From the NCBI RefSeq assembly GCF_018320785.1, contig NC_054878.1, positions 44,511,429-44,575,428 of the forward strand: 64,000 bases of DNA, read 5' to 3'. The notes under the pieces are model-generated. The model had not been told where the DNA came from and did no database searches. It saw nothing but the letters and a program-made list of their open reading frames with translations. Both the position numbers and the translations under genes were made by a program. The number at the start of each line of letters is the position of its first letter. Positions within the stretch are counted from its first letter, which is position 1. Source of the stretch: Cheilinus undulatus (taxonomy: Eukaryota; Chordata; Actinopteri; Labriformes; Labridae). Shown here piece after piece: positions 14,755 through 18,100 of the stretch.

Positions 14755-15187
14755 ATGGAGAAGGTGGAGAAGGATGACCCACCGCTCAGTGAAATCTTGT
14801 GTGCAATCAGAGAGCTAAAGGAAGACTTTGCATCAAAGTTTGAAATAGTCAAGTCAGTGCAGTCCAGGCTAACAGAGGCTGTTGAGCGTCTTGGATTAGT
14901 AGAAGATGATTCCTCAGCGCTGAATAAAACGACACAGCAGCTTCATCAGAAAATTGAGAGCCTATCTGCAAAAATAGAAGACCTGGAAAACCCCAGCCAC
15001 AGATCCAACACACAGCTTGAAGGCTATCCGGAAAATACTGAGGGGAAAGATGCATGTGCTCTTCTGGAAAAATGCATACCTGAAGTGAGGATCGCTGATT
15101 CTTTTTCAACACCTGTCGTTGCTAAGAGGGTGCACCAAAATCCATCTGGTGGAGACAAGAACGGAGCAAAGGAGCTGCAGGCACCAG
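14755..15187 (+). other. First coding exon of NLR A, resembling L1 ORF1 protein
   Basis: Open from ATG (context GCATGG, right after CTGCAG at 14752) to the donor CACCAG-GTGAGA. It encodes 144 residues: a heptad-like region ([16 protein letters not shown] ... [17 protein letters not shown]), then the L1-ORF1 signature [28 protein letters not shown], then a basic stretch ([14 protein letters not shown]). In teleost L1 ORF1p the same order is coiled coil followed by the RRM start (LEDLENRSRRNNI...GLPE). The exon ends with one base of a Gly codon that the GT start of exon 2 completes. Alternative: a neutral L1 relic in an intron. Confidence 0.6.
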
Positions 15188-18100
15188 GTGAGACAATTAG
15201 AGATATGTGATGAATCTGTGAACAGCTTTACTGAGATTTACAGATACACTGTCAGCTAATTTTTTTCAGAACAGTAGATCATGTGTATGAGAAATTAAGA
15301 AATGTGCAAATGTTTACTCCTCCTCATGAGTTAATCATTTTAGTTTTATAGCTATAGATTATTGATTAATGAGTTGAGAATAGACTACATCTGAGTGCTA
15401 CTGTTAAATTATGTAAAAATGACATTTCGCTATGGAATTAGGAAATAGCAGTTAAATACTGTTAAAACAGCTGAAGTTTAAAGGAGCCATATCTCTTAGT
15501 AGTCATGTTGGAGTGTTTCTGGGGGGTATGAGGTCTGGGTAACATTGAGGACTCATCAGATCCTGTTTGCTGCTCCATCATGGTCTCTGACAGTCCTGAA
15601 TATTTGAGTCATGTTACTGAGATGAATGAGAACTGATGTTAATAATGTTAATAACTGATGTTAAGCTGGTTGTAATGAATTGTTGTGTTTGTGTGAAGGT
15701 GGGAGATCTTCTAAGGAACAGAGAGAGGACAGACAGGAGGGAGCCCCTCCCTCTGCAAACTCTCTGAGTGGGGAACATGAAGACCAGACCAAAGCTCTGA
15801 GGTGAGATGAAGATCTCAAACTGTTTATGATTATTATACATAACAGAGATCACAACAAACATCACTCAGTAATTATTATTGTCATCACCAAATGTAGAGA
15901 TTAAAGAGTCCCTCCACACTGAAGGTTTTCTTCTTCTTGTTCTAGTTTTTGATGATCTGAGTACCAGAATCAGACCAGGGTTAAATCCACTTCAGCCACA
16001 ATATCCAACCATCTTATTGCCATGTCCAACCTGCCAGATTTCTCTTCAAACAATAGTCATCATTTTTTCAGCACATTCATGGCTGTGAGCTGAGAAATAA
16101 ACTGTCAAATGCAGCAGACTTGTCAGACATATTTTATCCTGTTATTCAATGACGTCATTTTAAAACGTGGAGTCAGAACAAAACTCTTCATCAAGCTGTT
16201 TCACTTAACATCACAGTGATTCACTCTCCAAGCTCTGTGTGTGTTGAAGCCCGAGTCAGCTCAGACCAGACTCTCCTGGACCTGGATCTGCTTCCAGCTG
16301 TGTGTCCCTCAGCAGTGACCGGTCCATAGATGAGCCACTTAAGTTTAAAGCTGGTCTCCAGTCTTCAATGAAAAGGTGAGAATGTGAACAGTCTTTCTCT
16401 CCTGGGTTTTGTTGTCATCAGTGCTTTAAGTGTAAAAATATATAATATAATCCTATTGCCATGTCCAACCTGCCAGATTTCTCCTCAATAATAATCATCA
16501 TTATTTCAGCACATTCATGGCTCTGAGCTGAGAAATAACCTGTCAAATGGAGCAGACTTGTCAGACATATTTATCCTGTTATTCAATGACGTCATTTGTG
16601 ACTGAAGCCAGATAAAGTTCCTGCAAGTCGGCATTCTGCTGGTTGAGAAAAATGGATACAAAGTTGTTTTCTTCAAAATGATAATTTTCCGTTTTTTTCT
16701 CATTGTATTCAAGCCCGACATTTAAACTACTGATTCAATGAAAAAAGTAACACAAATGTGATATTTAAAAGTGTTAATTTTGTGTTTTAAAATGCCCTAT
16801 TCTCGCAATTGCTGCAAGGATATTGAGGGGAGGGAAAGCGAAACTGCGGGGTGATAATTGGCCACTCAGTCTCCCATTGTTCCCTGTTTTGGCCATTGAG
16901 ATGGACAATAACAAACACCGCATGGCTCAAACGCCACCCCCCTCGGCACGTATACAGCTCTTTCTAGTTATCACCTGTAACAACAAGCCTCAAGATGCAC
17001 CCTGCAGCGAAGAAAAGTAGAAGAGACATGAAGAGGAAGCAAGAATTATCAACAGACTTGGGACGACTTCAGGATCACTCGACAGGGCAAGTTTGATTAC
17101 GGCGGATTTCCTATGGGAATATTTTGATGAGCGTTACCAGTCCGATTCAGAAGCTTGGTTTGGGTGGACTTTATGTAAATGTGGCCCTATTGTTCACGCC
17201 CATCTCCCGACCTGCCTGAAGGTAGGAGAAGTCCTGAAACTTTGAGCCTGATTTTCTCAGAAGGAGCAGGAACTAGACGTTAACATTCAAATGAGCATAT
17301 CTTTGTGAAATACGCTCATATTAAGGTGTATGATAGACCGATTGAAGGCTTGGAATCTACGCTTTCATAATGTGTAAAAAACTCAAAAATGACCTTAGAC
17401 GACTTGCAGGAGTTTGTACCAGCTTTGGTCACATTTTAAAACGTGGAGTCAGAACAAAACTCTTCATCAATCTGTTTCACTTAACATAACAATGATTCAC
17501 TCTCCAAGCTCTGTGTGTGTTGTGTTGAAGCCCAAGTCAGCTCAGACCAGACTCTTCTGGACCCAGATCTGCTCCCAGCTGTGTGTCCCTCAGCAGTGAC
17601 CGGTCCATAGATGAGCCTCTTTACTTTAAAGCTGGTCTCCAGTCTCTAGTTAAAAGGTGAGAATGTGAACAGTCTTTCTCTCCTGGGTTTGGATGTTTTT
17701 GTTGTCATCAGTGCTTTAAGTGTAAAAATATATAATATAATCCTATTGCCATGTCCAACCTGCCAGATTTCTCCTCAAATAATCATCATTTTTTCAGCAC
17801 ATTCATGGCTGTGAGCTGAGAAATAAACTGTCAAATGCAGCAGACTTGTCAGACATATTTATCCTGTTATTCAATGACATCATTTTAACACCTGGAGTCA
17901 GAACAAAACTCTTCATCAGTCTGTTTCACTTAACATCACAATGATTCACTCTCCAAGCTCTGTGTGTGTTGAAGCCCGAGTCAGCTCAGACCAGACTCTC
18001 CTGGACCTGGATCTGCTCCCAGCTGTGTGTCCCTCAGCAGTGACCGGTCCAAAGATGAAACAATTTACTTTAAAGCTGGTCTCCAGTCTCCAGTGAAAAG

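Follow-up and report, generated by a model that had tools for sequence, protein, structure and literature searches.

An L1 ORF1-derived exon as the probable start and N-terminus of clustered NLR genes in the humphead wrasse

The joining of a foreign domain to an immune receptor is known from plant NLRs with integrated decoy domains, and the capture of transposases by vertebrate genes is one case of fusion between host genes and transposable elements (TEs). The NLR-B30.2 genes of zebrafish have undergone N-terminal exon shuffling and gene conversion, and LINE-1 (L1) exons are not mentioned in the portion of their account compared here (Howe et al. 2016, PMC4852459). L1TD1 of placental mammals is described as the only known domesticated gene derived almost entirely from L1 (PMC4161310). 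TE coding exons have also been joined to host domains by exon capture, as in F-box/HTH fusions, in a source whose main text has no occurrence of NACHT, NLR or Transposase_22 (PMC12062965). The stretch analyzed here (the window) comprises 64,000 nucleotides of the humphead wrasse Cheilinus undulatus (contig C14, 44511429 to 44575428) and contains two tandem NLR genes. Gene A extends from 14755 to about 30098, and gene B from 41273 to about 59237. Both begin with an exon derived from open reading frame 1 (ORF1) of an L1 retrotransposon. This is most likely a genuine TE-host fusion particular to the lineage, in which the L1 piece gives the receptor its translation start and a coiled-coil tail at the N-terminus.

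The wrasse genes resemble the NLR-B30.2/NLR-C genes in having FISNA, NACHT, WH and HD2 within one large exon, in their N-terminal peptide-repeat exons, LRR exons and B30.2, and in their clustering and gene conversion (PMC4852459). In contrast, they have a retrotransposon first exon and have lost the family start in exon 2. As in L1TD1, L1 ORF1 sequence including the coiled coil is kept as host coding sequence; however, L1TD1 is stand-alone and almost wholly L1, whereas about 131 L1-derived codons of exon 1 are apparently spliced here onto a receptor gene, of which an L1 ORF1 protein matches exon 1 only. The locus shares with host-TE fusions a coding exon of TE origin that continues in frame into the host exons and has canonical splice sites, but its source is a LINE ORF1 and not the transposase of a DNA transposon, and its host is an NLR. 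A search of titles and abstract openings in the open-access literature found no L1 ORF1-NLR fusion, which does not prove absence. The captured piece in gene A has the following parts:

14755 to 15187, forward strand: exon 1 of NLR A, L1 ORF1-derived, 144 codons plus one base, ending at the donor CAG/GTGAGA
14570 to 15149, forward strand: L1-alignable stretch of A, from DNA alignment to the relic L034 (C5:37036447), with a similar result for the relic L035 (C5:3167723)
14692 to 14724, forward strand: site of the L1's own ORF1 ATG, a dead 10-codon upstream ORF with the stop TAA after a 17-nt gap relative to the relic
14527 to 14754, forward strand: likely 5' untranslated region (5'UTR) part of the first exon, behind the acceptor-like CTCCCTCTGCAG, whose use is presumed

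At E <= 10 and among 178 candidates, the sole protein match of exon 1 was P0001, the 294-aa L1 ORF1 protein (ORF1p) of Chaenocephalus aceratus (E 1.4e-32; the alignment spans 84% of exon 1 at 57% identity), which itself carries PF02994 above cut-off with 26.6 bits. In the reverse direction, tblastn with P0001 on the window gave 14776-15168 and 41294-41656, the remaining matches having E above 2. Compared with P0001, exon 1 has kept the coiled coil and the beginning of the RRM; homology stops near residue 190 of 294, and neither the remainder of the RRM nor the C-terminal domain is present. At the DNA level, the alignable stretch contains the end of the L1 5'UTR, a disrupted ORF1 N-terminus, the coiled coil and the first RRM part. 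The L1 homology stops 38 bases short of the end of exon 1 and does not reach its donor. The ATG of exon 1 is an internal L1 Met downstream of the original L1 start. The relics on C5 begin with MPRRKKTS and contain stops, L035 also has a frame break, and exon 1 is about 20% divergent from these same-genome relics. An origin of exon 1 as a chance ORF was rejected given the homology at E 1.4e-32, and an intact L1 was rejected since only the 5'UTR end and part of ORF1 are present and the L1 start is disrupted.

The profile search proposed in the sequence-only reading, an earlier model-made annotation of this stretch, gave no PF02994 above the curated cut-off for exon 1 among the 25 families shown of 32. 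Residues 79-144 matched no family, and the Pfam and NCBIfam matches listed for exon 1 were only coiled-coil look-alikes below curated cut-offs; the L1 identification comes from the protein and genome searches and not from profiles. A PDB sequence search of exon 1 likewise returned no L1 ORF1p match (best E 0.073). The claim of that reading that the exon is an L1 ORF1 fragment is nevertheless borne out by the P0001 match and the alignable relics. It had also described a canonical donor one base into a Gly codon, and this is correct: exon 2 completes the Gly codon at the junction and the frame continues.

The ATG of exon 1 in A stands in good context (GCAGGCATGG). The NCBI model P0002 ('NACHT, LRR and PYD domains-containing protein 6-like isoform X2', Cheilinus undulatus, 1327 aa) begins with exactly the L1-derived exon 1 of A (100% match), and an eight-exon chain of A (1, 2, R1-R3, 3, 4 and 5) equals P0002 through all 1019 residues tested; exons beyond residue 1019 were placed from tblastn pieces.

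The exon is not confined to NLR A, as this candidate reading was rejected by the finding of five copies. A whole-genome DNA search with 14527-15203 gave nine places (9 of 9 candidates scored; all genome-search counts are lower bounds). Five of them, at 91-100% identity, all belong to the NLR cluster of C14 and fall within 44.526-44.651 Mb. The other four are diverged or partial: a pair on C5 with 70% identity, and two shorter matches on C15 and C19. A genome search with P0001 recovered the same five C14 places (133 scored of 609 candidates). FISNA matches in this genome number at least 150 (of 169 candidates, 150 were scored), with 18 FISNA places on C14 including A and B; upstream stretches of about 18-20 kb were examined for 10 of the other 16. 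Among these ten stretches, exon 1 was present in genes C (L011/L012), D (L014) and E (L015). Each of the five copies is free of stops, and they share phase and donor.

Among 339 candidates of NLR length, exon 1 matched only P0002 and the icefish protein P0003 at E <= 10. A wide distribution of the exon in fish is thus unsupported, although the search needs shared short words and absence elsewhere is unproved. P0003 has an L1 ORF1 N-terminus on an LRR and CH-domain protein and is either a chimera or a prediction artefact. A further NLR model, P0087 of Semicossyphus pulcher, has a long N-terminus that by eye resembles gag or another retroelement, and it may be a TE-NLR chimera or an artefact.

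The second line of evidence is the state of exon 2, for which the relevant features are:

15699 to 15801, forward strand: exon 2 of NLR A, behind the acceptor GTGTGAAG/GT
15713 to 15715, forward strand: AAG (Lys) in place of the initiator ATG of relatives, codon read directly
41273 to 41675, forward strand: exon 1 of NLR B, L1-derived, 30 nt shorter in frame than that of A, with identical donor
42798 to 42900, forward strand: exon 2 of NLR B, with AAG at 42812-42814 instead of ATG

The family start motif is [GGGSA]M[ND]QCEDREEG. Its strict form occurs in 101 of the 122 proteins compared, a set made up of P0001, P0003 and the 120 relatives listed out of 152, among which is P0002. A looser form matches 108 of 120 proteins, although three or more of those matches are internal. 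In all five genes with exon 1, exon 2 reads GGRSSK[ED]QR[EK]DRQEG with AAG at the family ATG site; the Met of M[ND]QCEDREEG that A-E lack is a usual trait of the family and not part of its domain definition. The sequence-only reading had placed the family start at a Met within PSKMSLSGEH. Neither PSKM nor MSLSGEH occurs in the first 400 residues of the 122 proteins; the loss of the ancestral start holds, at 15713-15715, but the position given for it does not.

Exon 2 is present in nine of the ten examined stretches, with none found in L021/L022. Seven exon-2 copies lack exon 1 (L009, L018, L019, L024, L025, L027 and one at 44226925, the last known from a pattern match only, its lack of exon 1 resting on the whole-genome DNA search). 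The ATG is kept in six of these seven, and the degenerate L024 has TTG and an internal stop. The association between exon 1 and ATG (5/0 versus 0/6, L024 excluded) has a Fisher p of 0.002, although the five genes probably descend from one event, and it points to a handover of the start codon from exon 2 to the L1 exon. With the exon-2 ATG lost, full-length translation would depend on the L1 exon.

Gaps in exon 1 are of frame-keeping length. Between A and L034 they measure 3, 9, 3 and 30, all multiples of three, and relative to A they measure 30 in B, 21 in D and 30 in E. In the L1-derived stretch upstream of the ATG, they measure 3, 1, 17, 4 and 2. The excess of frame-keeping gaps in exon 1 has a Fisher p of 0.010 for seven versus five gaps and 0.015 for six exon-1 events. 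The gap count depends on the alignment, because direct DNA alignments to L034 split the gaps otherwise in B (3, 9, 3, 4, 56 and 2, plus 2 in the relic) and in E (3, 9, 3, 40 and 20), where the gaps are individually not all multiples of three and their sums are. Chance alone can readily yield gaps that keep the frame, as 9 of the 19 gaps pooled from the flanks have lengths divisible by three. In a neutral simulation, four distinct copies all stayed open in 12.9% of runs with no deletions, 2.7% with two and 1.3% with three; a two-copy simulation with one gap gave 10.5%. Omega (nonsynonymous to synonymous rate ratio) between A and B is 0.51 for exon 1 (0.56 with another codon alignment) and 0.47 for the NACHT exon, and pairwise exon-1 values among copies range from 0.56 to 1.34. 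Against the L1 relics, exon 1 has an omega of 0.32-0.37 with a synonymous divergence (dS) of 0.70-0.82, far above the divergence of about 0.2 in the upstream L1-derived stretch. The use of this low omega as proof of selection after capture was rejected, as selection also acted on the source L1 during its active life. Taken together, these patterns give moderate support to an exon that is translated but whose exact residues may be of little weight or changing.

As for the coiled coil expected in the sequence-only reading, heptad-like hydrophobic spacing is found in A and B (permutation p 0.002-0.0075 for the best windows, uncorrected for window choice), and AlphaFold, run on a three-row alignment, predicts helices at 11-46 and 50-78. 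Its confidence is only low to moderate, with a block pLDDT of about 68-84 in these helices, mostly below 50 elsewhere, a mean of 59.1 and a pTM of 0.28. In-frame gaps leave the coil shorter than that of the L1 relics, and its length varies among the paralogues. Heptads and helices fit a coil without thereby demonstrating oligomerization; such a coil could oligomerize the receptor and would presumably act as an extra N-terminal self-association surface. Since most of the listed relatives open with the exon-2 peptide and the repeat exons instead of PYD or CARD (a PYD, PF02758, is given for P0114), the coil is added in front of these peptides and does not replace a death-fold domain. The capture of the L1 exon as N-terminus, as claimed from the sequence, is thus supported by homology, frame, splice signals, P0002, the paralogues and the ATG loss, while its proposed substitution for PYD or CARD is not.

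The downstream anatomy of both genes is that of the fish-specific FISNA-NACHT-LRR-B30.2 receptors:

16250 to 16375, forward strand: peptide-repeat exon R1 of A, 126 nt, open
17531 to 17656, forward strand: peptide-repeat exon R2 of A, 126 nt, open
17975 to 18100, forward strand: peptide-repeat exon R3 of A, 126 nt, open
19207 to 19285, forward strand: exon 3 of NLR A, with an in-frame Met at 19250
19537 to 19795, forward strand: exon 4 of NLR A in the form used by P0002, with the donor CATGGGACAG/GT
20132 to 21937, forward strand: FISNA-NACHT-WH-HD2 exon of A, from profile scan and exon chain
22014 to 22617, forward strand: two LRR exons of A, about 22014-22196 and 22438-22617, from tblastn
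29571 to 30098, forward strand: PRY-SPRY (B30.2) exon of A, from profile scan and tblastn
51499 to 53306, forward strand: FISNA-NACHT exon of NLR B, from profile scan
58710 to 59237, forward strand: B30.2 exon of NLR B, from tblastn

In each gene FISNA, NACHT, WH and HD2 lie within one exon, accompanied by three 126-nt peptide-repeat exons, LRR exons and a B30.2 exon. In A, FISNA (PF14484) scores E 4.2e-34 and NACHT (PF05729) E 5.2e-34, with similar results in B; the profile scan also found PF17779 and PF17776 in both genes and PRY/SPRY in A, and the LRR exons come from tblastn and the precomputed PF13516 of P0002. Upstream of the NACHT exon, exon 2, the three repeat exons and exon 3 are open in both A and B. 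The B30.2 exons of A and B have an omega of 1.73 (57.8 nonsynonymous versus 10.2 synonymous differences), which suggests diversifying selection on this putative ligand-binding domain. Between the two genes, an ORF at 38974-39333 looks by eye like another L1-type ORF1, with no Pfam support. Upstream of A, about 36 copies of an 80-bp tandem repeat occupy 6286-9154; the unit resembles by eye the coding end of an ORF ending at 6360, which looks NXPE-like.

The five copies bear marks of exchange. Units B and C (window 31191-51542 versus L011/L012) show identical tracts alternating with about 4-10% difference per 500 bases, and exon 1 of B and C lies inside a 1858-bp identical tract; this mosaic carries the signs of gene conversion. 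Between A and B, 14527-14754 has only 5 substitutions in 228, and the low-divergence block 14527-14866 may also stem from conversion. In gene C, the GT of one exon-4 donor is lost and the donor used by the public model of A is retained. Open repeat exons number three in C and two in E, and whole genes are A, B and C at most. Exon 4 of the remaining copies is placed as follows:

L014, 9450 to 9760: exon 4 of gene D
L015, reverse strand: exon 4 of gene E

In the preferred reading, that of a real fusion, a 5' L1 piece with the 5'UTR end, the ORF1 coiled coil and the first RRM part would have landed upstream of NLR exon 2 and been spliced in as a new first coding exon, translation beginning at a Met inside the L1 frame and the donor lying just past the L1 homology. 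The exon-2 ATG would have changed to AAG once the upstream start existed, and the fused gene would have multiplied to five cluster copies, with signs of gene conversion. We infer from the genome that exon 1 is spliced and translated in the fish, and likewise the order of capture and ATG loss. Several results weigh against this reading. The five fused copies are linked duplicates with gene conversion, so that the link between exon 1 and the missing Met may be one event. Synonymous changes make up 10 of 40 exon-1 changes versus 22% expected (p 0.70; pairs A-E and B-D pooled), and amino-acid constraint is undetectable after duplication; the amino-acid changes of the exon look neutral. Since dS far exceeds the upstream divergence, the low omega against the relics may predate capture, in the active phase of the source L1, and the in-frame gaps against L034 could predate it as well. 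Gap positions in B, D and E overlap, and these gaps may be non-independent, the Fisher p rises to 0.048 when five or four exon-1 gap events are counted, and the weight of the simulation comes largely from two or three deletions, being 0.13 without them. In a leader beginning within the L1 5'UTR, three short upstream ORFs would precede the exon-1 ATG. Exon 4 is broken in frame by 8- and 13-nt deletions in D and by an 11-nt deletion in E, and D has a single repeat exon matching residues 1-34 of 42 only; exon 1 is open in D and E despite these frameshifts, and an open exon 1 is thus found in broken genes too. The sequence-only reading had counted a neutral substitution pattern without splice reads among the signs of an intronic relic: the pattern is indeed neutral-like after duplication, but the frame is kept in all five copies.

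In the nearest rival, the L1 piece rescues the start by serving as leader and site of initiation, with a possible role as promoter too, and the residues of exon 1 are otherwise functionless. This has a substantial chance, somewhat short of even: the frame is open in five of five copies yet the nonsynonymous and synonymous changes are neutral-like since duplication, the coil varies in length, the RRM is incomplete and L1 5'UTR lies directly upstream, while the persisting heptad pattern in A and B and the two predicted helices speak for more than a passenger peptide. It is unlikely that exon 1 is at most an untranslated leader or intronic relic, with translation starting at the R1 Met (16368), the exon 3 Met (19250) or the exon 4 Met (19537). 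Such in-frame Mets are available, and the neutral-like substitutions and upstream ORFs would agree with it; however, exons 2, R1-R3 and 3 are still open in A and B though they would be wholly or partly untranslated, exon 3 of B has no Met, the length differences of exon 1 among paralogues all keep the frame, and P0002 includes the exon. Even less probable is a gene-prediction artefact, an exon stitched by software onto genes of a pseudogenizing cluster. The exon-4 frameshifts of D and E and the presence of P0003, another L1 ORF1-gene chimeric model, in the same database agree with such an account, but the NACHT exons of A and B are stop-free, with an omega of 0.47 between them, their B30.2 exons are stop-free, and donor and phase are kept in all copies. 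Within the preferred reading of a real fusion, it is very doubtful that the L1 coil is an integrated bait, sensing L1 ribonucleoprotein through L1 ORF1p trimers, or the seed of a receptor oligomer, which would make a retrotransposon protein the sensing or assembly end of a vertebrate immune receptor. The likeness to plant integrated decoys is that of a foreign domain joined to an immune receptor.

If transcripts confirm the fusion, these genes would provide a vertebrate immune receptor whose start codon and N-terminus come from LINE-1 ORF1. The handover would be visible within a single genome, where five copies with the L1 exon and no ATG stand beside six with the ATG and no L1 exon. The cluster would thus offer a testable case for the replacement of NLR N-termini and for the reuse of a retrotransposon self-assembly domain in immune signaling.

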